This document shows positions 9,280 through 26,752 of a DNA stretch of 56,342 nt, piece by piece (position 1 is the stretch's first letter; each line of letters begins with the position of its first letter). The DNA is from Deferrisomatales bacterium (GTDB taxonomy: Bacteria > Desulfobacterota > Deferrisomatia > Deferrisomatales > Deferrisomataceae), in NCBI GenBank assembly GCA_024277875.1, contig JAJRUI010000131.1, forward strand, positions 1 to 56,342, in the 5' to 3' direction. A program made the position numbers and the translations under genes. The notes below the pieces were generated by a model. It was not told the DNA's origin. It saw nothing but the letters and a program-made list of their open reading frames with translations, and did no database searches.

Positions 9280-9282
9280 CCG

Positions 9283-9360: not shown

Positions 9361-10326
9361 TCCTCGTCGCCCCACGCGTTCGCCGGGGACTCCACGGCGC
9401 GGATCATGTGGACGGTGGTGGCCGCCCTGGCGCCGGCCACCGCGTGGGGGATCTACGCGTTCGGCCCCCGGGCGGCATGGGTGACCGCGCTGGCCGTGGC
9501 CGGATGCGCGGGGTTCGAGGCCGTGTTCCAGCGGATGCGGGGCCGGCCGGTGACCGTGTCGGACGGATCGGCTGTCCTGACCGGACTGCTCTTGGCCCTG
9601 AACCTGCCCGCGGCCAGCCCGTGGTGGCTGGTGGTGCTGGGCGCGGCCGTGGCCATGGGGCTGGGCAAGCATGTGTTCGGCGGCCTCGGCCAGAACCCGT
9701 TCAACCCGGCCCTGGTGGCCCGGGTGGTGCTGCTCGTGTCGTTCCCGGTGCAGATGACCACCTGGTCCGCGCCCGGAAGCTTCCTGGCCGACGGGATCAG
9801 CGGGGCCACCCCCCTGGGCGCGGCCAAGACAGCGGTGGCCACGGCCGGGGTGCTCGGGCCGGCCGGCCACGTGGACCTGTGGGCGCTCGCGCTGGGCGCC
9901 CACGGCGGCTCCATCGGCGAGGTGTCCGCGATCGCCCTGATCCTGGGCGCGGCCGTTCTGCTGTGGCGCCGGATCATCCCGTGGGACATCCCGGCGGCGT
10001 TCATCGGCGCCACGCTCCTCGTCACCGGCGCGGTGTGGGAACTCCACCCCGACCGGGTGCTCGACCCCCTGGCCCAGATCCTCACCGGGGGGCTCCTGCT
10101 GGGCGCCCTGTTCATGGCCACCGACATGGTGACGAGCCCCCTGACCCGCAAGGGGCGGTGGATCTTCGGCCTCGGGTGCGGGGTGATCACCGCCGCGATC
10201 CGGTTGTGGGGGGGGTACCCCGAGGGGGTGAGCTTCGCGATCCTGCTGATGAACGCGTGCGTGCCCCTGATCGATCGGTTCACCCGGCCTCGGAAGTTCG
10301 GTTGGGTGAAGGAGGCGGCGCCGTGA
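9283..10326 (+). CDS. rnfD: Rnf complex membrane flavoprotein subunit D
   Basis: 347 residues if GTG at 9283 is used. After residue about 28 the protein is a standard RnfD: SSPHAF, several membrane segments, and DGISGATPLGA with the Thr (T176 in this numbering) expected to bind FMN covalently. The first roughly 28 residues are encoded by the degenerate heptad repeat at 9283-9360 and have no counterpart in the RnfD family, which normally begins a few residues before SSPH. TTG at 9331 or a nearby CTG are alternative starts, so the true N-terminus is unresolved. The stop overlaps the rnfG start. Confidence 0.93.
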   Translation: MTWNLELGTSNPGPRPLSLEPRPLTLSSSPHAFAGDSTARIMWTVVAALAPATAWGIYAFGPRAAWVTALAVAGCAGFEAVFQRMRGRPVTVSDGSAVLTGLLLALNLPAASPWWLVVLGAAVAMGLGKHVFGGLGQNPFNPALVARVVLLVSFPVQMTTWSAPGSFLADGISGATPLGAAKTAVATAGVLGPAGHVDLWALALGAHGGSIGEVSAIALILGAAVLLWRRIIPWDIPAAFIGATLLVTGAVWELHPDRVLDPLAQILTGGLLLGALFMATDMVTSPLTRKGRWIFGLGCGVITAAIRLWGGYPEGVSFAILLMNACVPLIDRFTRPRKFGWVKEAAP

Positions 10327-10892
10327 GGGAAGTGGCCCGCATGGTGGGGGTGCTCACCCTGGTGTGCGTCCTGGCCGCCCTGGCCCTGGCCAAGGTGTAC
10401 GACCTGACCGAGGAACCGATCCGGGAGGCCAAGCGCCAGGAACTGCTCCGGGCCGTCGGGGCCGTACTGCCGGCGTTCGACAACGCGCCAGACGCGGACG
10501 CCCGCGAGGTGGACGGGGTCACGTACTACCCCGGCCGCAAGGTTGGGGAATTGGTGGGGGTGGCGTTCCCGGTGCGCTCGAACGAGGGGTACTCGGGTAC
10601 GATCGAGGCCCTGGTGGGGGTCGACCCCACGGGCCGGGTGACCGGGGTGGTCGTCCTGGCCCACGCCGAGACCCCGGGACTCGGCGCCAAGGCGGCCGAC
10701 CCCGGGTTTCTCGCCCAGTTCAACGGCCGGTCCCTGGACGACGCCCGGTGGGCGGTCAAGAAGGACGGCGGCGACTTCGACCAGATCACCGGTGCCACGA
10801 TCACCCCCCGGGCGATCGTGGCCGCGATCCGCACCGGCCTGGAGCGCTACCGGGCGGCGAAGCCGCGGATGGATGTGTTTGGTGACCAGTGA
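10323..10892 (+). CDS. rnfG: Rnf complex covalent-FMN subunit G
   Basis: 189 residues from GTG at 10323. One N-terminal membrane helix (about 5-25) anchors a periplasmic FMN-binding domain. The flavinylation motif is DQITGATITP, where T159 is expected to carry FMN through a phosphoester bond added by ApbE. VDPTGRVTGVVVLAHAETPGLG is the usual RnfG/NqrC core. The last few codons run into an octad repeat tract that also separates it from rnfE. Confidence 0.95.
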   Translation: MREVARMVGVLTLVCVLAALALAKVYDLTEEPIREAKRQELLRAVGAVLPAFDNAPDADAREVDGVTYYPGRKVGELVGVAFPVRSNEGYSGTIEALVGVDPTGRVTGVVVLAHAETPGLGAKAADPGFLAQFNGRSLDDARWAVKKDGGDFDQITGATITPRAIVAAIRTGLERYRAAKPRMDVFGDQ

Positions 10893-11000
10893 CTCGTGAT
10901 TGGTGATTGGTGATTGGTGACCATGCTGTTGCCTTCACCGGTCACGAGTCACGAATTACCAATCACGGCAGTTCCCCCTGAACCTTGAACCCGGACCCCC
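10883..11000. repeat. Octad repeat with inverted copies, followed by heptad copies, between rnfG and rnfE
   Basis: Units of the type GTGATTGG run in one orientation at 10883-10920 (GGTGACCAGTGACTCGTGAT, then three GTGATTGG-like copies). They return inverted at 10939-10968 (GGTCACGAGTCACGAATTAC, then CAATCACGG). A short heptad piece (CTTGAACC) follows at 10980-10991. The opposed copies could fold into a long imperfect hairpin in the mRNA inside the operon. No gene fits here. Confidence 0.75.
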
Positions 11001-11001
11001 C

Positions 11002-11595
11002 ATGTCCCTGGCCCGACAGTTCTGGAACGGAATCGCTTCGGACAACCCGGTGTTCCGGCTGGTGCTGGGCATGTGCCCGACCCTGGCCGTGACCACCGAG
11101 GCCGTGAACGGCATCGGCATGGGGCTGGCCACCACGTTCGTGCTCCTGTGCTCCAACGCGGTGGTCAGCCTGATCCGGTCGGTGATCCCGGCCAAGGTGC
11201 GCATCCCCGCGTACATCGTGGTGATCGCCGCGTTCGTCACCGTGGTGGACCTGGTGATGAACGCGTACGCCCACGACCTGCATAAGGCCCTGGGGGTGTT
11301 CATCCCCCTGATCGTGGTCAACTGCGTGATCCTGGGCCGGGCCGAGGCGTTCGCGTCCCGCAACGGGGTGGCTGCGTCCGTGGCCGACGGCCTGGGCATG
11401 GGCCTGGGCTTCACCCTCAGCCTCACCCTGCTCGGGAGCGTGCGCGAGGTGCTCGGCAACGGCACCCTGTTTGGCGCGTCCCTGTTCGGGGCGTCGTACC
11501 AGCCCCTGATCGTGATGATCCTGCCCCCGGGCGCGTTCATCACGCTGGGCCTGCTGCTGGCCGGGATCAACCGGGTGGGGGCCAGGGAGTCCTGA
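11002..11595 (+). CDS. rnfE: Rnf complex subunit E
   Basis: 197 residues with six predicted membrane segments, homologous to RnfA in inverted topology. NPVFRLVLGMCPTLAVTT and IPLIVVNCVILGRAEAFAS are the diagnostic motifs with the two cysteines proposed to hold the intramembrane cluster. It completes the order A-B-C-D-G-E, the same order as in Rhodobacter, Vibrio and E. coli rsx operons. No terminator with a U-tract follows; a heptad repeat and then the nuo promoter come next. Confidence 0.97.
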   Translation: MSLARQFWNGIASDNPVFRLVLGMCPTLAVTTEAVNGIGMGLATTFVLLCSNAVVSLIRSVIPAKVRIPAYIVVIAAFVTVVDLVMNAYAHDLHKALGVFIPLIVVNCVILGRAEAFASRNGVAASVADGLGMGLGFTLSLTLLGSVREVLGNGTLFGASLFGASYQPLIVMILPPGAFITLGLLLAGINRVGARES

Positions 11596-11636
11596 GCCGT
11601 GAACCCGGAACCCGGAACCCGGAACGTCGAACCTGA
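11596..11636 (+). repeat. Heptad repeat tract after rnfE
   Basis: Copies of the unit GGAACCC (CGTGAACCC, GGAACCC, GGAACCC, GGAACGT, CGAACCT) lie directly after the rnfE stop and upstream of the nuo promoter. Confidence 0.65.
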
Positions 11637-11685
11637 ACAATCCCCACACGTTGTGCTTTTATGCGCGAACGCGCGGGTTTCCGTC

Positions 11686-11787: not shown

Positions 11788-12144
11788 ATGCTCCAGAACT
11801 ACATCCCCATCCTGATCCTGTTCCTGCTCGCCGCGGGGTTCGGACTGGGCGTCGTGGTCATCTCGATGTTCCTCGGCCCCCGCCGGCCCGACCCCAGCAA
11901 GCTCAGCACCTACGAGTGCGGCATGGAGGTCGAGCCCGGCGCCCGCCAGCGGTTCGACGTGAAGTACTACCTCGTGTTCATGGCGTTCCTCGTGTTCGAC
12001 GTGGAAGTGGTGTTCATGTACCCGTGGGCGGTGCGGTTCCAGAAGCTGGGGCTGTTCGGGTTCGTGGAGATGCTGATCTTCCTGCTCATCCTCCTCGTGG
12101 GCTACGTGTACATCTGGAGGAAGGGAGTGCTGGAATGGGAATAG
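11788..12144 (+). CDS. nuoA: NADH-quinone oxidoreductase subunit A
   Basis: 118 residues with three membrane segments. [34 protein letters not shown] is the signature of NuoA/ND3, including the loop cysteine and the conserved acidic residues of the second and third helices. It is a membrane-arm subunit next to the quinone site. It overlaps nuoB by 10 bp, so the two are translationally coupled. Confidence 0.97.
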
Positions 12145-12635
12145 AGACCAACCTGCCCCCGTTCATGCTGACCAAGCTCGAGGCGGCGGTCGGCTGGGCC
12201 CGTAAGAACTCGATCTGGCCGGCGACCTTCGGGCTGGCGTGCTGCGCCCTCGAGATGATGGTGGCGTCGTCGTCCCACTACGACATCGCCCGGTTCGGAG
12301 CCGAGGTGTTCCGGCCGTCCCCCCGCCAGTCGGACCTGATGATCGTGGCCGGCACCGTGACCAAGAAGATGGCCGCCATGGTCCAGAAGATCTATTCCCA
12401 GATGCCCGACCCCAAGTGGGTGATCGCGTACGGCACCTGCGCGTGCTCGGGCGGGATCTTCAATGTGTACAACACGGTCCAGGGCGTGGACCAGATCCTG
12501 CCCGTGGACGTGTACGTACCCGGCTGCCCGCCCCGGCCCGAACAGCTCCTGGCCGGGATCATCAAGCTCCAGGACAAGATCGGGCAGCAGAAGTTCTCGG
12601 ACTTCCCCGACACCGCGGGCGAGCTGTCCGCCTGA
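12135..12635 (+). CDS. nuoB: NADH-quinone oxidoreductase subunit B (N2 cluster)
   Basis: 166 residues. [18 protein letters not shown] and PGCPPRPE supply the four cysteines, including the tandem CysCys, that hold cluster N2, the last electron carrier before quinone. ATG at 12135 lies inside the end of nuoA. It is complete and unremarkable, so the quinone-reducing end of the enzyme appears functional. Confidence 0.97.
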
Positions 12636-12652
12636 ACCGGCGAGGAGATCCC

Positions 12653-13132
12653 ATGAGCGATCTGACCGCTGTTGCGGACGCGCTGCAAAAGGAGTTCGGC
12701 GACGCCGTCCGGGCCTGCGAGGAGTTCCGGGGCCAGGCGATCGTCACGGTGGACAAGGACCGGATCGTGGACGTGGCCACGTTCTGCCGGGACGACGTGC
12801 GGCTGTCGTTCGAGATGCTCACCGATCTGACCGCAGTGGACCGGACCCCCCGGGCCCCCCGGTTCGAGGTGGTGTACAACCTGTACTCGTTCGCCCACAA
12901 CCGCCGGCTGCGCCTGAAGGCCCCGGTGGCCGAGAACGACACCCTCGCAACTGTGGAGGGCGTGTGGAAGAGCGCCAACTGGCTCGAGCGCGAGGTGTAC
13001 GACCTGTTCGGGATCGTGTTCGACGGGCACTCGGACCTGCGCCGGATCCTGCTGTGGGACGGGTACGTGGGGCACCCCCTGCGCAAGGACTTCCCCCTGG
13101 AGGGGATCCCCCAGAAGGTGGTCTACCGGTAG
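12653..13132 (+). CDS. nuoC: NADH-quinone oxidoreductase subunit C
   Basis: 159 residues of the 30-kDa subunit family. The diagnostic end is WLEREVYDLFGIVFDGHSDLRRI followed by LRKDFPLEG. It is a separate gene, not fused to nuoD as in E. coli. It is a hydrophilic connecting-arm subunit. A GAGGAGATCCC ribosome-binding site precedes the ATG. It has about 17 bp to nuoB and 53 bp to nuoD. Confidence 0.96.
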   Translation: MSDLTAVADALQKEFGDAVRACEEFRGQAIVTVDKDRIVDVATFCRDDVRLSFEMLTDLTAVDRTPRAPRFEVVYNLYSFAHNRRLRLKAPVAENDTLATVEGVWKSANWLEREVYDLFGIVFDGHSDLRRILLWDGYVGHPLRKDFPLEGIPQKVVYR

Positions 13133-13185
13133 CCGCCGCGCACCGCTTGCGCGCCCCGCGTCCGAGAATCTTCGGAGAGGTCACG

Positions 13186-14364
13186 ATGGCCGAGACCAAG
13201 AACATGATCGTCAACATGGGCCCCCAGCACCCGGCCACCCACGGCGTGCTCCGGGTGGTGCTGGAGCTGGACGGCGAGATCGTGGTGAAGGCCACGCCGC
13301 ACCTGGGTCACCTGCACCGGGGGCTCGAGAAGCTGGCCGAGACCAAGACCTACCACCAGGCCCTCACGCTCACCGACCGGATGGACTATACGGGGGCCCT
13401 GATCAACAACCTTGGGTACTGCCTGGCCGTGGAGAAGCTCCTGGACATCGAGGACCGCATCCCGGAGCGGGCCACGGTGCTGCGGGTGCTCCTGTGCGAA
13501 CTCCAGCGGATCGCGGGCCACCTGCTGTGGCTCGCCACCCACGCCCTGGACATGGGCGCCATGACCGTCCTGTTCTACGCGTTCCGCGAGCGTGAGACCG
13601 TGATCGACCTGCTCGAGGACGTGACCGGCGCCCGCCTGACCCCGAGTTTCGTGCGGGTGGGCGGCCTGGCCCAGGACGCGCCCCCGGTGTTCTTCGAGAA
13701 GGCCCGCCGGTTCGTCCAGGACTTCCCGTCCAAGATGGCCGAGTACGAGCGGCTCCTCACCGACAACCGGATCTGGCGCGAGCGCACCGAGGGGATCGGG
13801 ATCCTGTCCAGGGAGGACTGCATCCAGTACGCCCTGACCGGGCCGGTGCTCCGGGCGGCCGGCGTGGAGTGGGACCTGCGCAAGAAGCAGCCGTACTGCG
13901 GGTACGAGACCTACGACTTTGAGATCCCCACCGGCACGAAGGGCGACGTGTTCGAGCGGTACCTCGTGCGCCTCGAGGAGATGCGCCAGTCCCTGCGGAT
14001 CGTGGAGCAGGCCCTGGACCGCGTGCCGGACGGCCCGGTGATGGCGGACGAGGCCGTGGTCTCGCCGCCCCCCAAGGAGGAGGTGTACGAGGACATCGGC
14101 CAGCTGATCCGCCACTTCAAGTGGATGAGCGCCGGTTTCCCCGTGCCCGAGGGCGACGTGTACGTGGGCGTGGAGGCCACCAAGGGCGAGTTGGGGTACT
14201 ACCTGGTGTCCGACGGCAGCGAGAAACCGTACCGGTTCCGGGTGCGGCCGCCGTGTTTCGTCAACCTCCAGGCCCTGGAAGACATGATCGTGGGCCGCAT
14301 GGTGGCCGACGTGATCGCGGTGATCGGCTCCCTGGACATCGTGCTCGGCGAGATCGACCGGTAG
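13186..14364 (+). CDS. nuoD: NADH-quinone oxidoreductase subunit D (49-kDa, quinone site)
   Basis: 392 residues, standard length. NMGPQHPATHGVLR near the N-terminus provides the conserved His of the quinone-binding loop, and LHRGLEKLAE follows. The C-terminus ends in VIGSLDIVLGEIDR as in other NuoD proteins. It lacks the Ni-Fe cysteines of hydrogenases, so this is a true complex I quinone-module subunit rather than a group 4 hydrogenase. The next gene starts 92 bp later. Confidence 0.97.
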   Translation: MAETKNMIVNMGPQHPATHGVLRVVLELDGEIVVKATPHLGHLHRGLEKLAETKTYHQALTLTDRMDYTGALINNLGYCLAVEKLLDIEDRIPERATVLRVLLCELQRIAGHLLWLATHALDMGAMTVLFYAFRERETVIDLLEDVTGARLTPSFVRVGGLAQDAPPVFFEKARRFVQDFPSKMAEYERLLTDNRIWRERTEGIGILSREDCIQYALTGPVLRAAGVEWDLRKKQPYCGYETYDFEIPTGTKGDVFERYLVRLEEMRQSLRIVEQALDRVPDGPVMADEAVVSPPPKEEVYEDIGQLIRHFKWMSAGFPVPEGDVYVGVEATKGELGYYLVSDGSEKPYRFRVRPPCFVNLQALEDMIVGRMVADVIAVIGSLDIVLGEIDR

Positions 14365-14456
14365 GGAGCTTCCGCAAACCCTCGTGAATTGGCACCCCGA
14401 ACGGGGTGCGTCGCGGGCCGCTCCCGGGCGGCCCGACAGATCACGGAAGGTTGTTC

Positions 14457-16454
14457 ATGGGCGATCTGATCTTCTCCAGCTGGGGCGGCCAAGTGGTGGA
14501 CAGCCGCCGGGGCGGCGGGGTGGGCGCCGACGACGTGGCGTTGCCCAAGGCCCTTGCGTCGGGCACGCCGGTGGCCGGGGTCATGGGATGGGACGGCATC
14601 GCCGTGTGGGGCGACGGGGTCCAGGTGATCGACCTGGCGCGCGCCTACGCCGAGGGGCTCGTCCGCAACTCGTGCGGCCAGTGCGTGCCGTGCCGGGTGG
14701 GCAGCAAGGTGATCTTCGACTGCCTGGACCGCGTGTGCAGCGGCAAGGGACGGCCCACCGACCTGTCCACGGTCGAGCGCCTGGCCGCCCGGCTCAAGGA
14801 CCAGGCCATGTGCGACCTGGGCCGGACCTGCGGCAAGGCGTTCGCCGACTTCGCGACCCACTTCAAGGCCGAGGTCGAGGCGGCCGTGGCCGCGGGCAGC
14901 GAGATCCCCCGGGGAACCTACCGGCTCAAGGTGACCGCGCCGTGCAAGAGCGCGTGCCCGGCCCACCTGGACATCCCCACCTACGTGGAACTGATCCGCA
15001 AGGGGCGGTTCCTGGACAGCCTCGAGGTGATCCGGCAGGACAACTGCCTGCCCGGCACCGTGGGCCGGGTGTGCGTGCGGCCGTGCGAGTTCAACTGCCG
15101 CCGCCAGAACGTGGACGGCCCGGTCCAGATCAAGTACCTCAAGCGGTTCGTGGCCGACTACGAGCTGGACCGCAAACGCCCGCCCCGGTTGCCCAAGCCG
15201 GCCGCCGACAAGCCGAAGGTGGCGGTGGTGGGCGCCGGGCCGGCCGGCCTGTCCTGCGCGTACTACCTGGCCCAGATGGGGTACGGGGTCACCGTGTTCG
15301 AAGCCCTGCCCGAGCCCGGCGGCATGGCCGCGGTGGGCATCCCGGACTACCGGCTACCCCGCCAGCTCCTGCAGCACGAGGTGGGCCTGATCGAGGCCCT
15401 CGGGGTCGAGATCCGGTACAACACCGACATCGGCACGGACGTCCCGTTCGAGGACCTGCTCAAGGGCGAGTACAAGGCCGTGTTCGTTGCGGTGGGTGCC
15501 CGGCTGGGCACGGGGTTGCGGGCCCCGGGCGAGGACGAGGCCCGGGAAGGGTTCATGCGCGGGGCCGACTTCCTCCGGGACGTGGCCCTGGGGCGGGAGG
15601 TGTTCGTCGGCAAGCGGATCGTGGTGGTGGGCGGCGGCAACGTGGCCATCGACTGCGTGCGTACCGCCCTCAGGCTCGGGTACGAGGACGTGAAGCTGGT
15701 GTACCGCCGCACCGAGAAGGAGATGCCTGCCGACGACGTGGAGATCGCCGACGCCAAGGCCGAGGGCATCGAGTTCCTGTTCCTGCACAACCCCACCCGG
15801 CTGGTGCTCGACGACAACGGAAAGGTCAAGGGCGTCGAGCTGATCAAGATGGAACTGGGCGAGCCCGACGCGTCGGGCCGGCGCCGGCCCGTGCCGGTGG
15901 AGGGCAGCGAGTTCGTGCTCGACACCGACGCGGTGATCCCGGCCATCGGCCAGGCGATCGACCTGGGGTTCCTGCCCGAGGACGGCCCGGTCAAGGCCGA
16001 CAGGTGGAACCAGGTCGAGGTGGAGGGCCTGAACTGGCTGGCTGGCGTGGCCAACGGGGTGGGGGTGTTCTCGGCCGGCGACTGCGTCACCGGGCCCCTG
16101 ACCCTGATCGGCGGCCTGGCCGGGGGCAAGGAGGCCGCGTTCCAGATCGACCGGTTCCTCCAGGAGGGCCGCACCGAGCCTCTGGAGGAGTGGGTGATGA
16201 ACGCGTACGTGGCCCAGCTGAACCCGTACGACGACGCCGAGGACGTGGGCCTGCCGGCCACCACCGAGCCGGCCCACATCCACCACCTGCCGGTGGAAGA
16301 GCGGATCCGGGACTTCCGGGAGGCGGAAGTCGGGTTCACCCACGAAGAGGCCATCGCCGACGCCAGCCGGTGCCTGCGGTGTTACCGGATGCTCCTGGTG
16401 GCGGTGGGTGGCGACGGGGCTGGCGCGCCCGGCTCCCCGACCGCCGACCGCTGA
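14457..16454 (+). CDS. Fusion flavoprotein: NuoF C-terminal Fe-S domain plus GltD-like NAD(P)H/FAD oxidoreductase (SfrB-like)
   Basis: 665 residues from ATG at 14457 after a GGAAGG site. Residues 1-145 resemble only the tail of NuoF: CGQCVPC (C73, C76, C79) plus C119 fit cluster N3, but the FMN/NADH-binding front of NuoF is missing. Residues about 160-235 are the cysteine-rich Fer4_20 domain of glutamate synthase small subunits (C163, C167, C206, C210, C214). From about 253 follow two Rossmann folds, VVGAGPAGLSCAYYLAQMG for FAD and VVVGGGNVAIDCVRTALRLG with nearby YRRTEKEMPA, typical of NADPH binding in GltD. GVFSAGDCVTGPLTLIGGLA closes the FAD site. The architecture matches what I know of Geobacter SfrB. 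It sits exactly where nuoE-nuoF would be and is 22 bp from the formate dehydrogenase gene, so it is likely an NADPH (or NADH) input/output module of this complex I. Confidence 0.88.
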   Translation: MGDLIFSSWGGQVVDSRRGGGVGADDVALPKALASGTPVAGVMGWDGIAVWGDGVQVIDLARAYAEGLVRNSCGQCVPCRVGSKVIFDCLDRVCSGKGRPTDLSTVERLAARLKDQAMCDLGRTCGKAFADFATHFKAEVEAAVAAGSEIPRGTYRLKVTAPCKSACPAHLDIPTYVELIRKGRFLDSLEVIRQDNCLPGTVGRVCVRPCEFNCRRQNVDGPVQIKYLKRFVADYELDRKRPPRLPKPAADKPKVAVVGAGPAGLSCAYYLAQMGYGVTVFEALPEPGGMAAVGIPDYRLPRQLLQHEVGLIEALGVEIRYNTDIGTDVPFEDLLKGEYKAVFVAVGARLGTGLRAPGEDEAREGFMRGADFLRDVALGREVFVGKRIVVVGGGNVAIDCVRTALRLGYEDVKLVYRRTEKEMPADDVEIADAKAEGIEFLFLHNPTRLVLDDNGKVKGVELIKMELGEPDASGRRRPVPVEGSEFVLDTDAVIPAIGQAIDLGFLPEDGPVKADRWNQVEVEGLNWLAGVANGVGVFSAGDCVTGPLTLIGGLAGGKEAAFQIDRFLQEGRTEPLEEWVMNAYVAQLNPYDDAEDVGLPATTEPAHIHHLPVEERIRDFREAEVGFTHEEAIADASRCLRCYRMLLVAVGGDGAGAPGSPTADR

Positions 16455-16476
16455 AAGCAGACAGCTGGAGAGATCC

Positions 16477-19149
16477 ATGGTCAACCTCACGATCGACGCA
16501 GTCCAGGTCAGCGTACCCGAGGGTTCGACGATCCTGGAGGCGGCCCAGGCCGCGGGGATCCGGATCCCGACCCTGTGCTGGCTCAAGAAGCTCTCGCCCA
16601 TCGGGTCGTGCCGCATGTGCGTGGTCCACGTGGACGGGGTGTCCAGGCCCGTGACCGCGTGCGACACCGTGGCCGGGGACGGGCTGGTGGTCACCACCGA
16701 CTCGGACGAACTCCGGGAGATGCGCCGGGACGTGCTCAGGCTGCTCCTGGTGCGCCACCCCCTGGACTGCCCGGTGTGCGACAAGGGCGGCGAGTGCGAC
16801 CTCCAGGACCTGGTGACCGAGTTCGGGGTGACGGCCAAGGAGTACGGCACCGAGCCGTTCGAGCGCCAGTTGCCCCGGTACGTGTCGCCGTTCATCCAGC
16901 AGTGGCCCGACCGGTGCGTGCTGTGCGGCCGGTGCGTGCAGGCGTGCACCGAGATCAAGGGCATCGGGTGCATCCAGATCGTGGACAACGGGCTGCACAG
17001 CTACATCGGTCCCAAGCCCGGGGCCGAGTGCGTGTCCTGCGGCGAGTGTCTGAGCGTGTGCCCCGTGGGCGCCCTGACCGACGGGGTCCGGGAGACCAAG
17101 GCCCGGATCTGGCAGTCCGAGCGGGTGGAGACCACCTGCGGATACTGCGGGGTCGGGTGCCAACTCGAGCTCAACGTGCTGGACGGCCGGATCCTGCGGG
17201 TCACCACCACCGACTTCGACAAGGCGCCCAACCACGGCACCCTGTGCGTGAAGGGGCGGTTCGGGTGGGAGTTCGTGGACCACCCCGACCGGCTCACCAA
17301 GCCCCTGGTTCGCAAGGACGGGGACCTGGTGGAGAGCACCTGGGACGAGGCCCTCGGTCTGGTGGCGTCCCGGCTCCAGCAGATCAAGGACGAGCACGGA
17401 CCGGACGCGCTGGGCGGGTTCACCAGCGCCCGGTGCACCAACGAAGAGAACTACCTGTTCCAGAAGTTCTTACGCGCGGTGATCGGGACGAACAACGTCG
17501 ATCACTGCGCACGACTCTGACACAGCGCCACGGTGGCCGGTCTGGCCACTAGCTTCGGTTCGGGCGCCATGACCAACGCCATCGCCTGCGTGGACAAGGC
17601 AGAGGCCTTCCTGGTCATCGGCTCCAACACCACCGAGAACCACCCGATCATCGGCGACCGGGTCAAGCGGGCCGTCACCCGCCGGGGCGCCAAGCTGGTC
17701 GTGATCGACCCACGGCGGATCCCCCTGGCCGAGTACGCCAACGTGTTCCTCCAGATCCGGCCCGGGGACAACATCGCGGTCCTGAACGGGATCATGCACG
17801 TGATCCTCCAGGAGGGGCTCCACGACGCCGCGTACATCGAGGAACGGTGCGAGGGGTTCGACGCGTTCGCCGCGAGCCTGGAGAAGTTCACCCCCGAGTG
17901 GGTCGAGCAGAACACCGGCGTGTCCGCCGACGCCCTGCGCGAGGCCGCCCGGCTGTACGCCACCGCCGACCCGGCCTCGATCTTGTACGCGATGGGCGTC
18001 ACCCAGCACACCCAGGGCACCGACGCGGTCAAGGCCCTGGCCAACCTGGCCATGCTCACGGGCAACGTGGGCAAGGAGGGCGGCGGCCTGAACCCCTTGC
18101 GGGGCCAGAACAACGTGCAGGGCGCGTGCGACATGGGCGGGCTGCCCAACGTGGTCACCGGGTACCAGAAGGTCGCCGACGACGAGGCCATGGCCAAGTT
18201 CGACGAGGCGTGGGGCCGCAAGGTGCGCCGGGAGGTGGGCCTCACCGTGACCGAGATGGGCAACCGGGCCGCCGACGGCTCCCTGAAGGCCCTCTATATC
18301 ATGGGCGAGAACCCCATGATCACCGACCCGGACCTGCACCACATCGAGAAGGCCCTGGACAACCTGGAGTTCCTGGTGGTCCAGGACATCTTCCTGACCG
18401 AGACCGGCCAGAAGGCCGACGTGGTGCTGCCCGCGTGCTCGTTCGCCGAGAAGGACGGCACGTTCACCAACACCGAGCGCCGGGTGCAGCGGGTTCGGCG
18501 GGCCGTGGCGCCCACGCCGGGCTGCCGGCCCGACTGGGCGATCCTGGCGGACCTGATGGGCCGCATGGGGTACAAGGCCGAGTACGCAGGCCCCGAGGAG
18601 ATCTTCGAGGAGATCCGCAGCCTCACCCCGAGCTACGCGGGCATCACCTACGACCGGATCGAGAACGAGGGCATCCCGTGGCCGTGTCCGGACACCGACC
18701 ACCCCGGCACGCCGATCCTGCACGTGGGCGGGTTCGCCCGGGGCAAGGGCCTGTTCCACCCGGTCGATTACAACGGACCCGACGAACTGCCGGACGACGA
18801 CTATCCGTTCTTCCTGACCACCGGACGCGAACACCCCCACTACCACTCGGGCACCATGACCCGGCGGTGCGGCCGGATCAACGACTGCTTCCCCGAGGGG
18901 TTCATGGAGATGAACCCGGTGGACGCCGAACGCCTGGGCCTCGCCACCGGCGACCCGGTCAAGGTGTCGTCCCGCCGGGGCGAGATCACCACCAAGGTCC
19001 AGGTGATCGACCGCACCGCGCCGGGCACGGTGTTCATGAGCTTCCACTACAGCGAGTCGCCGGTGAACCAGCTCACCAACTCGGCGGCGTGCCCGACCTG
19101 CAAGATCCCGGAGTACAAGGTGTGCGCGGTGCGGGTGGAGAAACTGTAG
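16477..19149 (+). CDS. fdhA: Selenocysteine formate dehydrogenase catalytic subunit with NuoG-like N-terminus (in-frame UGA at 17518-17520 read as Sec348)
   Basis: One 890-residue protein interrupted on paper by a TGA that is in frame with both halves. Order: 2Fe-2S domain (C34, C45, C48, C62); His-Cys3 cluster (H94, C98, C101, C107); two 4Fe-4S motifs (C147-C157 and C185-C195); molybdopterin domain opening with CGYCGVGC (C221, C224, C228, C257) and K259. At the active site HCARL-Sec-HS has the Sec-His pair of formate dehydrogenases. The C-terminal dinucleotide-binding domain begins near FLTTGREHPHYHSGTM. A bacterial SECIS hairpin follows the UGA. It should oxidise formate (or reduce CO2) at a bis-MGD Mo/W centre. 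It takes the place of nuoG, so electrons probably go through the N-terminal clusters to NuoI and/or to the upstream flavoprotein. Non-selenocysteine reading would give a useless 347-residue fragment. Confidence 0.93.
17518..17550 (+). promoter_or_regulatory. Selenocysteine UGA codon and bacterial SECIS hairpin in fdhA
   Basis: TGA at 17518-17520 is followed after exactly 18 nt by the loop GGTCT (17539-17543), closed by a perfect 6-bp stem GTGGCC (17533-17538) / GGCCAC (17544-17549). The spacing and the GGUCU apical loop are the same as in E. coli fdhF mRNA, which SelB recognises. The flanking protein context (CARL-U-HS) is the formate dehydrogenase active site. It implies that selA, selB, selC and selD exist elsewhere in the genome. 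Confidence 0.93.
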
Positions 19150-19157
19150 GGCGGTAC

Positions 19158-19231
19158 TTCGTGATCCGTGACTCGTGATTGGTGATTGGTGAATTGAACC
19201 GGAAACCGGAAACCGGGAACCGGAAACCGAC
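19158..19231 (+). repeat. Octad plus heptad repeat tract between fdhA and nuoH
   Basis: Octads GTGATCCG, TGACTCGT, GATTGGTG and GATTGGTG are followed directly by heptads of the type GGAAACC (five copies, 19196-19230). The two repeat classes are joined end to end in a 106-bp gap inside the operon. Confidence 0.7.
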
Positions 19232-19255
19232 GCCTGCCGTCTTTGGAGTCTGACG

Positions 19256-20260
19256 ATGCTCGACTTCGTGATCGAGAGCGTGATCAAGGTCGTGGTGGTG
19301 TTCGCGGTCCTGATGCTGTTCGTGGCCTACACCACCTGGATCGAGCGCAAGGTGCTCGGCCGGATCCAGGTGCGCCACGGGCCGAACCGGGTGGGGCCGT
19401 TCGGCCTGCTCCAGCCGATCGCCGACGGGCTCAAGGGGTTCTTCAAGGAGGACATCATCCCGTCCAACACGGACCGGTTGCTGTACGCCCTGGCCCCGGC
19501 CCTGTCGATCATCCCGGCGCTCCTGGTGGTCGCGGTGATCCCGTTCGGCGACCAGTTCACCCTGTTCGGCCGCACGATCACGATGCGGATCACCGACATC
19601 AACGTGGGCCTGCTGTACATCCTGGGGCTGGCTGGCCTCGGGGAGTACGGGGTGATGCTGGGCGGGTGGGCGTCCAACAACCGGTACGGCCTGCTGGGCT
19701 CCCTGCGCACGGCCGCCCAGATGATCAGCTACGAACTGGCCCTGGGGATCACCCTGATCAGCGTGATCATGGTGAGCGGCAGCCTGTCCCTGGTGGAGAT
19801 CGTCGAGGCCCAGGCCGGCCTGTGGAACGTGTTCAAGCCGATCCTGTGGGTGCCGTTCATCCTGTACATCATCTGCGGGCTGGCCGAGATCAACCGGACC
19901 CCGTTCGACATGCCCGAGGCCGAGTCCGAACTCGCGTGCGGGTTCAATATCGAGTACTCCAGCATGAAGTTCGCCATGTTCTTCATGGCCGAGTACGCCC
20001 ACGCGATCAGCCTGGCGGCCCTGATCACCTGCCTGTTCCTGGGCGGGTGGAACCTGCCGTTCGTGGCGACGCCGGGTTTCCTGAAGCTGCCCGTGTTCCT
20101 CGCCAAGGTGTTCGCCCTGGTGTTCTTCTTCGTCTGGGAGCGCGGCACCTTCCCCCGCCTGCGGTACGACCAGATCATGCGGTTCGGCTGGAAGGTGCTG
20201 ATGCCGATCGCCCTGGCCAACATCGTGGTGGTGGGGCTGTACTACACCGTCATCGCGTAG
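19256..20260 (+). CDS. nuoH: NADH-quinone oxidoreductase subunit H
   Basis: 334 residues with eight predicted membrane helices. TTWIERKVLGRIQVRHGPNRVGPFG is the NuoH/ND1 signature, and AEINRTPFDMPEAESELACGFNIEYS is the conserved acidic loop lining the quinone chamber. It joins the membrane arm to the hydrophilic modules. ATG at 19256 is supported by homology. It is complete. Confidence 0.97.
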   Translation: MLDFVIESVIKVVVVFAVLMLFVAYTTWIERKVLGRIQVRHGPNRVGPFGLLQPIADGLKGFFKEDIIPSNTDRLLYALAPALSIIPALLVVAVIPFGDQFTLFGRTITMRITDINVGLLYILGLAGLGEYGVMLGGWASNNRYGLLGSLRTAAQMISYELALGITLISVIMVSGSLSLVEIVEAQAGLWNVFKPILWVPFILYIICGLAEINRTPFDMPEAESELACGFNIEYSSMKFAMFFMAEYAHAISLAALITCLFLGGWNLPFVATPGFLKLPVFLAKVFALVFFFVWERGTFPRLRYDQIMRFGWKVLMPIALANIVVVGLYYTVIA

Positions 20261-20284
20261 CAGGTCGCTGAGGAGGAACTGCCC

Positions 20285-20722
20285 ATGATTCCCGTCAAGA
20301 GCCGGCGGATCGGCTTCTTTGGGACGCCCCTGCCCTTGCTCAAGGGGCTCCTGTTCACCCTGAGCCGACTGTTCACCAAGCCGGTGACCTACCAGTACCC
20401 GGAGCAGAAGCGCCAGCCGGCCGACCGGTGGCGGGGGCTGCACCGGCTCAAGACCACCGACGCCGGCCAGCTCAAGTGCGTGGCGTGCGGCCTGTGCGAG
20501 GCGGTGTGCCCGGCCAACGTGATCACGGTGGAGGCCAAGGAGACGCCGGACGGCCGGCGGTTCCCGAACCGGTTCGTGGTGGAGGTGACCCGGTGCATCT
20601 TCTGCGGCTACTGCCAGGAGGCGTGCCCCAAGGACGCCATCGAGCTGACCACCAACTACGAGTTCTGCGGCTACACCCGGGAAGAGTTCCACATGACCCG
20701 GGACGTGCTGGCCCGCAACTGA
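20285..20722 (+). CDS. nuoI: NADH-quinone oxidoreductase subunit I (N6a/N6b ferredoxin)
   Basis: 145 residues, shorter than the roughly 180-residue E. coli protein but with both 4Fe-4S motifs complete: CVACGLCEAVCP and CIFCGYCQEACP. These hold clusters N6a and N6b and form the only electron path from the NuoG-position subunit to NuoB. In this operon that partner is the formate dehydrogenase. A GAGGAACTGCCC ribosome-binding site precedes the ATG. Confidence 0.96.
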   Translation: MIPVKSRRIGFFGTPLPLLKGLLFTLSRLFTKPVTYQYPEQKRQPADRWRGLHRLKTTDAGQLKCVACGLCEAVCPANVITVEAKETPDGRRFPNRFVVEVTRCIFCGYCQEACPKDAIELTTNYEFCGYTREEFHMTRDVLARN

Positions 20723-20735
20723 GGAGGGGCTCCGG

Positions 20736-21242
20736 ATGATGCTGGCGATGTTCTTCCTTGCGGCAGGCGTGGCGGTGCTCGGCGCGCTGGGCGTGCTGCT
20801 GTGCCGCAACCCGATCCACTCGGCCCTGGGCCTGGTGGCCACCATGGTATCGCTGGCCGTGGTGTACCTGCTGCACCACGCGGAGTTCATCTTCGTGATC
20901 CAGCTCATGGTGTACGCGGGCGCGGTGATGGGGTTGATCGTGTTCGTGATCATGCTCCTGGACATCCGGCGGGAGGAGGCGGCGTCCTCCCGGTTCGCGC
21001 CGGGCAAGGTGGTCGGCGTGGGCCTGGCCGGGCTGTTCTTCGTGGCGATCCTGGTGCCGTTCACCTCCCGGCTCACCGGCCGGATGGGCGGCATGACCGA
21101 GAGCGCCCTGGAGCGGATCGGCAGCGTCCAGTACCTGTCGGACCAGTTGTTCGGGCCGTACCTGCTGCCGTTCGAGATCGCGTCGATCCTGCTGCTGGTG
21201 GGGCTCGTGGGCGCGGTGACCCTGGCGAAGAAGAAGCTGTGA
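20736..21242 (+). CDS. nuoJ: NADH-quinone oxidoreductase subunit J
   Basis: 168 residues with five predicted membrane helices. RNPIHSALGLVATMVSLAVVYLLHHAEFIFVIQLMVYAGAVMGLIVFVIMLLD is the conserved NuoJ/ND6 core with the glycine-rich third helix. It starts 13 bp after nuoI behind a GAGGAGGGG site. An octad repeat tract separates it from nuoK. Confidence 0.96.
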   Translation: MMLAMFFLAAGVAVLGALGVLLCRNPIHSALGLVATMVSLAVVYLLHHAEFIFVIQLMVYAGAVMGLIVFVIMLLDIRREEAASSRFAPGKVVGVGLAGLFFVAILVPFTSRLTGRMGGMTESALERIGSVQYLSDQLFGPYLLPFEIASILLLVGLVGAVTLAKKKL

Positions 21243-21246
21243 GGCC

Positions 21247-21290
21247 GTGAACGGATCACCGATCACCGGTCACTGATCACCGATCACCGG
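21247..21290 (+). repeat. Octad repeat tract between nuoJ and nuoK
   Basis: Copies of CCGATCAC/GGATCACC type: GGATCACC, GATCACCG, GTCACTGA, TCACCGAT, CACCGGAG. The nuoK ribosome-binding site (GGAGGGCGACCCG) follows immediately. Confidence 0.65.
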
Positions 21291-21308
21291 AGTCCGGAGG
21301 GCGACCCG

Positions 21309-21611
21309 ATGATACCTCTCGAATACTCGCTCACGCTGTCGGCCGTGCTGTTCACCCTGGGGGTGATCGGGGTGCTGGTGCGGCGCAACGTGATCGTGCT
21401 GCTGATGTGCGTCGAGTTGATGCTCAACGCGGTGAACCTGTCGTTCGTGGCCCTGTCGGACCACCTGAACAGCGCCGAGGGCCTGCTCTACGTGTTCTTC
21501 GTGATGACCGTGGCTGCGGCCGAGGCGTCGGTGGGACTCGCGATCGTGGTGAGCCTCGTCCGTGCCCGGAATACCGTGTACGCCGACGAGGTCGACCTGC
21601 TCAAGGGCTGA
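21309..21611 (+). CDS. nuoK: NADH-quinone oxidoreductase subunit K
   Basis: 100 residues with three membrane helices. [24 protein letters not shown] contains the glutamate of helix 2 that takes part in proton translocation in NuoK/ND4L, and the [13 protein letters not shown] end is typical. It has 22 bp to nuoL. Confidence 0.97.
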
Positions 21612-21633
21612 CCGCAGCCGGAGGACGTTACCC

Positions 21634-23676
<2,043 letters not shown>

Positions 23677-23694
23677 GGCGAGGGAGACGGATCG

Positions 23695-25248
23695 ATGAGC
23701 CACTTCCCGTATCTGAGCACGATCACGTTCATCCCCCTGGTCGGGGCGCTCGTGCTGCTGGCGATGAACCGGCGCAACGTGGGCCTGATCCGCGGGTGGA
23801 CCCTGGCCGTGGCCGCGGTGAACTTCGTGATCAGCCTGGCCCTGTGGGCCCGGTTCGACCCGGCCGTGGGCGGCATGCAGTTCATGGAGCGCAAGGCGTG
23901 GATCGCGTCCCTCGGCATCCAGTACTTCGTGGGGATCGACGGGATCAGCCTGTGGCTGGTGTTGCTGACCACGTTCCTCACGGTGATCTGCGTGGTGTCG
24001 AGCTGGGGCGTCGAAAAACAGGTCAAGGAGTACATGCTGTTCTTCCTGGTGCTCGAGACCGGGATGCTCGGCGCACTGATCAGCCTCGACCTCGTCCTGT
24101 TCTACGTCTTCTGGGAAGCGATGCTGATCCCGATGTACTTCCTGATCGGGGTCTGGGGCGGCACCGACCGGATCTACGCCGCGGTCAAGTTCTTCATCTA
24201 CACCATGGTCGGGTCGCTCCTGATGCTGGTGGCGATCCTCGTGCTGTACTTCCTGAACATCAAGGCGGGCAACGCGCCCACCTTCGACCTGTTGCAGCTC
24301 TACCAGCTGCCGATAGCGCCCAACGTGCAGTTCTGGATGTTCGCGGCGTTCTGCCTGGCGTTCGCCATCAAGGTGCCCATGTGGCCCCTGCATACCTGGT
24401 TGCCCGACGCCCACACCCAGGCGCCCACGGCCGGTTCGGTGATCCTGGCCGGGGTGCTCCTGAAGATGGGCACCTACGGGTTCCTGCGGTTCGCGATGCC
24501 CCTGTTCCCGAACGCGGCCCAGGCGTGGGCGCCGTTCATGATGACGATCGCGGTGGTCGGCATCATCTACGGTGCCCTGGTGGCCATGGTGCAGACCGAC
24601 GTGAAGAAGCTGGTGGCGTACTCGTCGGTGTCCCACCTGGGGTACGTGATGCTCGGCCTGTTCGCCCTGAACGCCCAGGGCGTGGCCGGCGGCATCTACC
24701 AGAGCCTGAACCACGGCATCTCCACCGGCGCCCTGTTCCTGTTGGTGGGGGTGATCTACGAGCGGCGACACACCCGGGAGATCGCGGAGTTCGGCGGGCT
24801 GGCCAAGCAGATGCCCGCGTACGCCACGGTGTTCCTGATCATCACCATGAGTTCGATCGGGCTGCCGGGCCTCAACGGGTTCGTGGGCGAGTTCCTGATC
24901 ATGCTCGGCACGTTCCTCACCTCCAAGACGGCAGCGGTGTTCGCGGCCAGCGGGGTGATCCTGGCGGCCGGGTACATGCTGTGGATGGTGAAACGGGTGT
25001 TCTTCGGGCCCTTGGACAACGAGAAGAACCAGAACCTGGCCGACCTCAACCGGCTGGAGTGGGGCTACCTGCTCCCGATGGTGTTCCTGGCGTTCTGGAT
25101 GGGCCTGTACCCGGGCACGTTCCTGCGCAAGATGGACGCCACCGTGGAGCTGTGGCTCAGCCGGTTCGAGGCCAAACGCGAGGCGTGCCTGGAACTGGAC
25201 CGCCCCGACGCGGCTGTGGCGTTCCGGGTGGAGACCGAAAACCAGTAG
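23695..25248 (+). CDS. nuoM: NADH-quinone oxidoreductase subunit M
   Basis: 517 residues, about 14 membrane helices. FYVFWEAMLIPMYFLIGVWGG contains the conserved Glu, and KVPMWPLHTWLPDAHTQAPTAGSVILAG and AYSSVSHLGYVMLGLF are the NuoM/ND4 proton-channel motifs. It starts 18 bp after nuoL behind GAGGCGAGGGAGACGG. Confidence 0.97.
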   Translation: MSHFPYLSTITFIPLVGALVLLAMNRRNVGLIRGWTLAVAAVNFVISLALWARFDPAVGGMQFMERKAWIASLGIQYFVGIDGISLWLVLLTTFLTVICVVSSWGVEKQVKEYMLFFLVLETGMLGALISLDLVLFYVFWEAMLIPMYFLIGVWGGTDRIYAAVKFFIYTMVGSLLMLVAILVLYFLNIKAGNAPTFDLLQLYQLPIAPNVQFWMFAAFCLAFAIKVPMWPLHTWLPDAHTQAPTAGSVILAGVLLKMGTYGFLRFAMPLFPNAAQAWAPFMMTIAVVGIIYGALVAMVQTDVKKLVAYSSVSHLGYVMLGLFALNAQGVAGGIYQSLNHGISTGALFLLVGVIYERRHTREIAEFGGLAKQMPAYATVFLIITMSSIGLPGLNGFVGEFLIMLGTFLTSKTAAVFAASGVILAAGYMLWMVKRVFFGPLDNEKNQNLADLNRLEWGYLLPMVFLAFWMGLYPGTFLRKMDATVELWLSRFEAKREACLELDRPDAAVAFRVETENQ

Positions 25249-25297
25249 CGGCAGACCCGTCGGCGCCTCGCCGACCAGCCGACCCAAAGGTGGATCC

Positions 25298-26752
25298 ATG
25301 AACTTCCAGATGGCAGACCTCCAGCTCCTGGCGCCCCACATCGTGGTCTTGGCCACGGCGCTCCTCGTCCTGCTCGCCGAGGCGTTTTGCAAGGGGGAGC
25401 GCAAGGGTTACCTGGCCTACCTGGGCATTGCCGGCATCGTGGTCGCCGCGCTGCTCACCCCGCGCCTGTTCGGCCCCCAGCGGCTCGGGTTCTCGGGCAT
25501 GCTGGCCGGGGACGGTTTTGCCGCGTTCTTCTACTTCATCCTGTACGCGGTGGGCATCCTGACGCTGCTCGTCAGCCAGAACTACCTGCGGGACGAGCGG
25601 TTCGAGCACGGCGAGTACTACGCCCTGGTGCTGCTGGCCCTGGTGGGCATGATGCTGATGGCGGGCGCCACCCACCTGATGGTCGTGTTCCTGGCCCTCG
25701 AGACCATGAGCATCGCGATCTACGCGCTGGCCGGGTACTTCCGGACCGAGCGGTCGGTGGAGGCGTCGCTGAAGTACTTCATCCTGGGCGGGTTCGCGTC
25801 CGGGTTCCTGCTCTACGGCATCGCCCTGATCTACGGCGCGTGCGGCACCACCCAGATCTACGACGTGATGGCGTACTTCAAGGCCCTGCCGGCCCTGACC
25901 TCGTCGCCCATGGCCCTGGCCGGGATCGGCCTGCTCACCGTTGGGTTCGGGTTCAAGGTGGCGGCCGTGCCGTTCCACGCGTGGACCCCGGACGTGTACC
26001 AGGGGGCGCCCACCTCGGTGACCGCGTTCATGGCCACCGGGGTCAAGGCGGCCGCGTTCAGCGCGTTCCTTCGGGTGTTCGTGGTGGCGTTCCAGGGCAC
26101 CCACGTGGAGTGGAGCGGGGTGCTGTGGGTGCTGGCGCTCCTGACCATGACCCTCGGGAACCTGACCGCGATCGCCCAGACCGACGTCAAGCGGATGCTC
26201 GCCTACTCGTCGATCGCCCATGCCGGGTACCTGCTGGTGGGACTCGTGGTGGGCACCCCGGAGGCGAGTTCGGCCATGATGGTGTACCTGCTGGCCTACG
26301 CGTTCATGAACATCGGCGCGTTCGCGTGCGTGATCATGGTGGGCCGATACGGCCAGGAGAACACGTCCCTGGACGCGTACGCGGGCATCGGGTTCCGGTT
26401 CCCGGCCCTGGGGCTGGCCATGGCGGTGTTCATGTTCTCGATGGCCGGGATTCCCCCGACCGCCGGGTTCATCGGGAAGTTCCTGATCTTCAAGGCCGCG
26501 GTGCACGAGGGGTACTACTGGCTCACGATCCTGGGCGTGCTGAACTCGGCGGCCAGCGTCTACTACTACCTGCGGGTGATCATCACCATGTACTTCAAGC
26601 CGTCCCCGGACGAACCCGCCGTGGACGGCCTGAGGGTCGGCCCGAGCGCCGCCCTGGCCACCGTGCTCGCCGGGGTGGGCGTGCTGTACCTGGGAATCAT
26701 CCCGGGCGGCATCATCAAACTGGCCGAACAGGCCGTGCGGTTCATGGGCTGA
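25298..26752 (+). CDS. nuoN: NADH-quinone oxidoreductase subunit N
   Basis: 484 residues, about 14 membrane helices. FLALETMSIAIYALAGYFRT, FKVAAVPFHAWTPDVYQGAPTSVTAFMATG and AYSSIAHAGYLLVGLV are diagnostic for NuoN/ND2. It is the last gene of the operon, and a strong terminator hairpin lies 38 bp past its stop. All seven membrane-arm subunits (A, H, J, K, L, M, N) are therefore present and intact. Confidence 0.97.
   Translation: MNFQMADLQLLAPHIVVLATALLVLLAEAFCKGERKGYLAYLGIAGIVVAALLTPRLFGPQRLGFSGMLAGDGFAAFFYFILYAVGILTLLVSQNYLRDERFEHGEYYALVLLALVGMMLMAGATHLMVVFLALETMSIAIYALAGYFRTERSVEASLKYFILGGFASGFLLYGIALIYGACGTTQIYDVMAYFKALPALTSSPMALAGIGLLTVGFGFKVAAVPFHAWTPDVYQGAPTSVTAFMATGVKAAAFSAFLRVFVVAFQGTHVEWSGVLWVLALLTMTLGNLTAIAQTDVKRMLAYSSIAHAGYLLVGLVVGTPEASSAMMVYLLAYAFMNIGAFACVIMVGRYGQENTSLDAYAGIGFRFPALGLAMAVFMFSMAGIPPTAGFIGKFLIFKAAVHEGYYWLTILGVLNSAASVYYYLRVIITMYFKPSPDEPAVDGLRVGPSAALATVLAGVGVLYLGIIPGGIIKLAEQAVRFMG

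Follow-up and report, generated by a model that had tools for sequence, protein, structure and literature searches.

A complex I operon of a Deferrisomatales bacterium carrying genes for a predicted selenocysteine formate dehydrogenase and a GltD-type flavoprotein in place of nuoEFG

The 56,342-nucleotide stretch of DNA analysed here (contig JAJRUI010000131.1 of assembly GCA_024277875.1, from a Deferrisomatales bacterium; hereafter the window) carries a complex I operon in which the slot between nuoD and nuoH holds two genes. One encodes a flavoprotein that joins the cluster-binding tail of NuoF to a GltD/NfnB-like domain, and the other, fdhA, a formate dehydrogenase (FDH) with selenocysteine (Sec) at its active site. 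The window contig (C112) belongs to a 2.98 Mb genome of 150 contigs, rated 92% complete, and the locus (11788-26752) reads nuoABCD-[flavoprotein]-[fdhA]-nuoHIJKLMN, the whole series lying on the + strand with intergenic spacers of -10 to 106 bp. The arrangement holds up, is conserved and makes functional sense, and because it recurs in relatives the layout is not due to chance. Judging from the sequences, this is probably a complex I whose NuoEFG module has been replaced by the FDH and the flavoprotein, and which would function as a reversible, proton-pumping formate/NADP(H):quinone oxidoreductase.

The gene fdhA (16477-19149, +; 890 aa) stands in the nuoG position and its product begins with NuoG-type clusters. 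In a domain scan begun from 16471, FdhA matched the Pfam domains Fer2_4, NADH-G_4Fe-4S_3, Fer4_Nqo3, Molybdop_Fe4S4, Molybdopterin and Molydop_binding. Against the FDH-alpha model TIGR01591 it scored 864.6 bits, some 200 bits above the cut-off of 666.25, and it failed the NuoG equivalog TIGR01973 (421.5 bits for a cut-off of 470.05). Alignment located ligands for the 2Fe-2S and His-Cys3 clusters and in three additional 4Fe-4S motifs; in the same alignment E. coli NuoG itself is short of one 4Fe-4S ligand in one motif and of three in another. The catalytic set, which we take to be K44, Sec/Cys140, H141 and R333 of E. coli FDH-H, is complete as K-U-H-R. The predicted structure (mean predicted local distance difference test score, pLDDT, 83) found its best matches in FdsA-type FDHs (9ktl_A, TMq 0.91) and scored lower against the NuoG of complex I (8e9h_G, 0.73; E. 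coli 7nz1_G, 0.70). The ratio of non-synonymous to synonymous substitution (dN/dS) of fdhA falls inside the range seen for the nuo genes, among which the NuoN dN value of locus L085 looks like an alignment artefact from a partial match. By sequence, FdhA is thus a catalytically equipped selenocysteine FDH.

The fdhA reading frame has a single in-frame TGA, at codon 348 (17518-17520, +), which aligns to U140 of E. coli FDH-H and is read as selenocysteine. It is followed by the apical hairpin of a Sec insertion sequence (SECIS), GTGGCC-GGTCT-GGCCAC (17533-17549, +), at nucleotides 16-32 when the U of UGA is counted as 1. Among 47 locus rows, in-nuo and stand-alone, representing 46 distinct sequences, the arms formed standard pairs in 276 of 276 cells. 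Sliding the 3' arm gave at most 176 pairs, and 500 arm shuffles gave a mean of 260 and a maximum of 265, the observed value exceeding every shuffle; the shuffle mean is high because conservation of the protein leaves few bases free to change. One pair varies among G-C, C-G, A-T and G-T, and of the four Cys homologues only L105 keeps every pair. A tRNA-Sec was found on contig C10 of the same genome (72 bits, above the gathering score). A sequencing error mimicking a stop was ruled out by the SECIS pairing, the tRNA-Sec and the identical TGA in relatives.

The flavoprotein (14457-16454, +; 665 aa) consists of the C-terminal N3-cluster domain of NuoF (NADH_4Fe-4S, PF10589), Fer4_20 and a GltD/NfnB-like domain for flavin adenine dinucleotide (FAD) and NADPH (Pyr_redox_2). 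The Pfam scan, begun from an upstream start at 14406, gave no match to Complex1_51K, the flavin mononucleotide (FMN)/NADH domain, and no NCBIfam model exceeded its cut-off. The N3-motif cysteines C73, C76, C79 and C119 were invariant in an 11-sequence alignment, and the arginine equivalent to NfnB R201 is kept. Longer relatives, of 1,016-1,054 aa, join a NuoF part to the same GltD part at 12 of the 13 loci examined for it, and the one that was Pfam-scanned, from L122, includes the FMN domain. In its sequence the window flavoprotein is like this full NuoF-GltD fusion minus the FMN domain. The fusion loci (L208, L209, L211-L219 and L122) lie mostly near FDH and nuoE genes and outside nuo clusters; at L122 and L217 the fusion stands between nuoE and a NuoG-like gene, with nuoH next, and the other ten had no nuoA-D or nuoH-N match within the stretch.

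All 11 remaining nuo genes were found in canonical order on the + strand: nuoA (11788-12144), nuoB (12135-12635, its scan begun at 12150), nuoC (12653-13132) and nuoD (13186-14364) before the two slot genes, and nuoH (19256-20260), nuoI (20285-20722), nuoJ (20736-21242), nuoK (21309-21611), nuoL (21634-23676), nuoM (23695-25248) and nuoN (25298-26752) after them. The products of nuoB, C, D, H, I, K, L, M and N each exceed at least one curated NCBIfam cut-off (TIGR01961 for NuoC, TIGR01962 for NuoD with 567 bits, TIGR01971 for NuoI, TIGR01974 for NuoL, TIGR01972 for NuoM and TIGR01770 for NuoN). NuoA (145 bits, cut-off 155) and NuoJ (118 bits, cut-off 192) matched their families and missed the cut-offs of narrow models. 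We compared with E. coli the ligands and charged residues which we take to matter. The four N2 cysteines of NuoB, the N6a/N6b cysteines in the two 4Fe-4S motifs of NuoI and the quinone-site His and Tyr motifs of NuoD (HPATHG and MDY) are retained, as are the listed charged residues of NuoA (D79/E81, E. coli numbering), NuoH, NuoK (E36/E72), NuoL, NuoM and NuoN; E55 of NuoJ is Q here. By subunits, ligands and quinone-site motifs these proteins belong to the Q and P modules of complex I. The two NiFe ligand patterns looked for are both absent from NuoD, and a group 4 hydrogenase was thereby ruled out.

The original prediction, made from the letters of the window, had described 11 intact nuo genes in canonical order, only two genes between nuoD and nuoH, a catalytic FDH with NuoG-type N-terminal clusters, a fusion of a NuoF tail with GltD, and an operon with no nuoE and no FMN/NADH domain of NuoF. 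The NCBIfam matches and ligand checks bear out the first of these descriptions, gene content and domain scans the second, the TIGR01591 score and ligand set the third, and the flavoprotein's domain content the fourth; the last agrees with domain scans that found neither NuoE nor the FMN/NADH domain of NuoF in the operon.

A search of the genome with PF01512, PF01257 and PF10588 did not find canonical nuoEFG elsewhere, although at 92% completeness and 150 contigs this absence is not proof. PF10588, the NuoG-type His-Cys3 domain, matches once genome-wide, in the operon FdhA. The Complex1_51K matches are an RnfC-like gene of the window (assigned by eye and position) and two proteins, on contigs C23 and C150, both of which have additional 2Fe-2S and 2x4Fe-4S domains of the kind seen in HydB-type proteins. 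Homologues of NuoE and NuoF lie on C150 and on C23, those on C23 adjoining genes that are Hdr-like by eye. There, Hdr-like genes, NuoE, the HydB-type NuoF and a HoxU-like protein form, by eye, one cluster (L004, G000:C23, 365-8727), which hints at an electron-bifurcating complex. Contig C90 holds another cluster of nuo type, which had no nuoEFG within the stretch read, five of its proteins having been scanned; this cluster carries two MrpD/antiporter-D-like proteins (489 and 615 aa) at the place of NuoL, followed by NuoM and NuoN (L029, 2665-13597).

Of the 11 available relatives from the order, 8 were also searched with PF10588, and the domain was single-copy in six (G001, G002, G003, G061, G097 and G153), always as the operon FDH; in G153 the operon breaks off where a contig ends, and the FDH is the first gene of a different contig, ahead of nuoH, I, J and K. 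G265 and G285 each have a second match (contamination 6 and 9%), and that of G285 adjoins GltD- and NuoF-like pieces in a Stn-like manner, with no nuo matches. G061, rated 100% complete, had no Complex1_51K (PF01512) match. G001, a single contig, has two such matches: an RnfC-like protein of 453 aa close to the operon and an open frame of 798 aa.

The flavoprotein is present in four of four family genomes, the three relatives having 81-82% identity. At E<=1e-150 it was matched in 10 of 12 genomes of the order sample and in 113 of 395 of the whole phylum sample. We collected 43 neighbourhoods, of which 3 came from the family and 40 were chosen among the phylum matches, and 80 named loci, the best 80 of at least 579; 11 of these 123 were duplicates, leaving 112 distinct loci. 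Of these, 71 sit in nuo clusters, 59 flanked by both nuoD and nuoH and 12 on one side, where the stretch ends within 2.5 kb on the other. An intact FDH set occupies the NuoG slot at 20 of the 71 (19 with Sec, and L105 with Cys), and a NuoG without the FDH active-site set at 33. Thirteen were left unclassed for want of an FDH-like row of at least 600 aa or after their rows were dropped (as L147 and L192); they include L057, whose Sec site is split over two tblastn pieces. Each of the 8 rows from the order of the window retains K-U-H-R. Intact in-slot FDHs also occur in records of metagenome-assembled genomes titled Candidatus Methylomirabilis (L196) and Bacteroidales (L203), and the flavoprotein of the record 'Deferrisomatales bacterium C14-16' (L127) is that of G285. 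The carriers are a group of mostly uncultured anaerobic bacteria. The nuoD-(gltD-like)-fdhA-nuoH synteny, for which the original prediction had proposed a genome search, therefore recurs and is widespread in the phylum, and the window is not a one-off.

Four of the 33 clusters with a site-less NuoG are also preceded by a separate Sec FDH. Such FDHs ahead of nuoA (L098, L151, L152 and L169) were considered as extra support and discounted; they may be another system, since neighbouring genes at L098 and L151 look HdrA/FdhB-like by eye. At L098, L151 and L152 a short Sec FDH without a NuoG-like N-terminus directly precedes a nuo cluster lacking the FDH site in NuoG. Among 21 stand-alone FDH rows (e.g. 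L106, L107, L113, L114 and L195), 9 have Gly and 1 has Gln where the His-Cys3 motif begins, a position that is His in 57 of 59 in-nuo rows.

An FDH/NuoG tree of 92 rows was built by a quick search under LG+G4, leaving out rows shorter than 600 aa, duplicates, E. coli FdhF, L143_0, L147_0, L192_0, L192_1 and L201_0. Its root lies on a very long branch and is unsure, and the program warns of long branches meeting. The 51 rows with an intact set fell within one 54-row group (Shimodaira-Hasegawa-like approximate likelihood ratio test, SH-aLRT, 99), with three rows without the set inside it. The intact in-slot FDHs formed three groups, of the window's own 8 rows (100), 9 rows (100) and 14 rows (96), stand-alone rows being placed inside the latter two. 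SfrA-like rows and 31 of 33 non-catalytic NuoG rows fell outside the 54-row group. Since a Sec site, once lost, would be difficult to restore, we infer that the non-catalytic versions arose by repeated loss of the FDH site. Over 51 in-nuo loci, flavoprotein-NuoD distances correlated at r=0.87 and FdhA/NuoG-NuoD distances at only 0.49, perhaps through faster evolution of the non-catalytic copies. At the 23 catalytic loci FdhA-NuoD distances gave r=0.92 and NuoD-NuoH distances r=0.93.

In the complex that we propose, FdhA would occupy the NuoG position and the flavoprotein, with the N3 domain of NuoF kept and a GltD/NfnB-type FAD domain, the NuoF position. Electrons would pass between formate and the Mo/W-Sec site, on through the N7-type 4Fe-4S cluster and the 4Fe-4S chain of FdhA to NuoI (N6a/b), and from there through NuoB (N2) to quinone, assumed to be menaquinone. 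NADPH would exchange electrons with the FAD, and these would run through two 4Fe-4S clusters and the N3-like cluster to the 2Fe-2S cluster of FdhA, joining the same chain. NuoHJKLMN would couple the electron flow to proton translocation. In the forward direction energy would be conserved from formate or NADPH; in the backward direction quinol and the proton motive force would reduce CO2 to formate for the Wood-Ljungdahl pathway. We infer the physical assembly, the quinone activity, the NADPH use and the direction. A precedent for the wiring is StnC, in which the GltD domain sends NADPH electrons via 4Fe-4S clusters to NuoG-type clusters, an inactive FdhF domain standing alongside (PMC10482914). 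By analogy, StnC-like wiring would bring electrons from NADPH and from formate together on a single chain leading to NuoI.

Wood-Ljungdahl genes are present in the genome, among them those for formyltetrahydrofolate synthetase (FTHFS), a CdhC-type acetyl-CoA synthase and, on the window contig, a methyl-tetrahydrofolate methyltransferase. Seven Molybdopterin-domain matches were found genome-wide, and of the three scanned with NCBIfam only the operon FdhA passed the FDH-alpha cut-off; the other Sec molybdopterin protein, on C99, shows by eye a leader like those of twin-arginine translocation (Tat). The operon FdhA is therefore the best candidate for a cytoplasmic CO2/formate enzyme. The CO2/formate couple lies at about -430 mV and menaquinone at about -75 mV. 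From these potentials the passage of two electrons would yield about 69 kJ/mol, close to what moving four protons against 150-170 mV requires, and thus the formate:menaquinone reaction could run either way. We tentatively raise the possibility that, in Deferrisomatales and other Desulfobacterota, CO2 enters the Wood-Ljungdahl pathway by reduction at an FDH-type complex I run in reverse, with relatives showing the stepwise loss of the FDH site that leads to an ordinary, non-catalytic NuoG; we hold this to be somewhat less likely than not to be correct.

Several observations weigh against a complex of this kind, and some of them would favour FdhA and the flavoprotein forming a soluble, NADP-dependent FDH that is merely co-transcribed, the 11-subunit complex I being fed by ferredoxin or another carrier. 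No nuo flank was found at 41 of the 112 loci (12 of the 41 on stretches short on one side), and 20 of these 41 hold catalytically intact FDH genes, which supply 21 intact rows of the tree; such a pair is therefore presumably able to function in soluble form. The tree does not keep stand-alone and in-nuo rows apart (5 changes). At five of the 71 in-nuo loci (L097, L137, L154, L156 and L157) the order is fdhA(Sec)-nuoABCD-flavoprotein-nuoH, with nothing between the last two, and at four of the unclassed ones (L104, L140, L145 and L189) no FDH/NuoG-like match was found between flavoprotein and nuoH. Two of the 12 order genomes (G125 and G223) gave no flavoprotein match at E<=1e-150. The co-divergence, compared within linked genes, could come from shared vertical descent alone. 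In favour of the soluble enzyme, complexes of 11 subunits without an N module are known (PMC11238625), and Rnf genes adjoin the operon. The second PF10588 match of G265 (L251, G265:C62, 2356-13374) lies in a canonical-looking nuoABCDEFG-H-I-J-K operon, so that the organism seems to have both forms. Canonical nuoEFG elsewhere, which the original prediction had named as speaking against it, was thus not found in the genome of the window and is present in G265, within a complete-looking nuo operon of its own. Nevertheless, the soluble enzyme seems to us unlikely: the two genes occupy the nuoEFG slot in many families, 33 loci pair the flavoprotein with a NuoG lacking the FDH site, which would be useless to a soluble FDH, the NuoF N3 domain is kept with its four invariant cysteines, and PF10588 matched no further protein in this genome or in six of the eight relatives searched.

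The same 33 loci, where the flavoprotein stays although the FDH site set is gone, together with its GltD/NfnB-like fold, could instead mean that the module works inside complex I mainly as an NADPH:quinone oxidoreductase, the FDH site being a little-used side entry or in the course of being lost. We regard this as rather unlikely for the window, given the K-U-H-R set in 8 of 8 rows of its order, the dN/dS of fdhA within the nuo-gene range, and the molybdopterin proteins described above, among which FdhA was the only one scanned to pass as FDH-alpha and the other Sec protein has the Tat-like leader. The original prediction had also called the enzyme possibly bifurcating, and the NfnB-like fold and R201 equivalent would suit flavin-based electron bifurcation at the GltD domain, from NADPH to quinone and to formate/ferredoxin. 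This part of the prediction fared poorly, and bifurcation is very improbable: both NfnA and a HydBC pair are missing from the operon, and StnC has the same arginine yet reportedly does not bifurcate (PMC10482914). In contrast, the core of the prediction, namely that the FDH and an NADPH-type flavoprotein form an electron-input module feeding NuoI, is supported by synteny, complete ligands and the lack of another NuoG-type protein in the genome as searched, and further by the site-less NuoGs in the slot of relatives, the full NuoF-GltD fusions and the co-divergence with NuoD.

Just upstream of the nuo genes lies an rnf cluster (window 7090-11595), in which RnfD and RnfE exceed their cut-offs and an RnfC-like gene was recognised by eye; a Complex1_51K match in a 450-489-aa frame, about 5.4-5.9 kb upstream of the flavoprotein, also occurs in G001, G003, G285, G097 and G153. 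Short repeat runs of the accgga/aacccgg type are found in the spacers at 11600-11650 (upstream of nuoA) and 19180-19235 (fdhA-nuoH). Elsewhere on the contig (28970-31887 and 54413-56078) are a methyl-tetrahydrofolate:corrinoid methyltransferase fused with a domain of the corrinoid-protein type, a gene weakly similar to MtaA/CmuA, and genes resembling FolD and FchA; the methyltransferase lies above a cut-off, and the FolD- and FchA-like genes below theirs.

The molybdoenzyme domain of ordinary NuoG is non-catalytic and its N7 cluster lies off the electron path, and both have long been read as relics. Here that domain appears functional, its gene lying within a complete complex I operon, and with site-less versions in the same slot of relatives its origin and loss become directly comparable. 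If the proposed complex is true, formate/CO2 would be linked directly with the quinone pool by proton pumping, so that formate respiration would yield energy, or the proton motive force would drive CO2 reduction for autotrophy. Our analysis suggests the FDH and flavoprotein module as one candidate electron feeder for complex I in Desulfobacterota reported without NuoEFG. Desulfurivibrio dismutans is described with a Nuo cluster lacking NuoEFG and perhaps an 'unknown electron-donating oxidoreductase' (PMC12142623). In Seep-SRB1g an fdhF2 is stated to adjoin nfnB (PMC10553843), possibly a stand-alone flavoprotein/FDH pair.

A description of nuoD-flavoprotein-fdhA-nuoH was not found in the open-licence literature, in agreement with the original prediction, which knew of no characterised enzyme of this exact composition; preprints and most subscription papers lay outside the search, and an earlier mention is possible. 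With the 14-subunit complex I (NDH-1, NuoA-N) the operon shares the membrane arm, the Q module, the gene order, the NuoG-type cluster chain and the N3-type domain; in contrast to it, the operon lacks NuoE and the FMN/NADH domain, has an FDH that is catalytic by sequence as its NuoG, and gains a GltD-type FAD domain. FdsA-type FDHs are soluble and have NuoEF-like partners. The cytosolic NAD+ enzymes of this type (PDB 6tg9, 9ktl) are like FdhA in fold and clusters, whereas the neighbours of FdhA in the window are a GltD flavoprotein and complex I. Formate hydrogenlyase likewise couples an FDH to a relative of complex I, but the window NuoD lacks the NiFe ligand patterns and the window FDH is NuoG-like. 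In Geobacter, SfrAB presumably comprises an SfrB-like flavoprotein and a NuoG/Fdh-like partner, and we read loci L115-L121 as of this type; they differ from the window in having no catalytic residues and no nuo flanks. Bacillus ForCE (PDB 8rqz) is said to link a NuoG-like FDH to menaquinone, as proposed here, reportedly without the membrane arm of complex I. The StnABC/NfnABC transhydrogenases (PDB 8oh5, 9bov) likewise join a GltD domain to a NuoG/Fdh-like domain, but their FDH domain is inactive, they are soluble and Stn has a HydBC-type bifurcating pair (PMC10482914). Finally, the complex I of Desulfitobacterium hafniense is reported to be similarly without NuoEFG (PMC11238625), and of the two only the window operon has a dedicated replacement module.

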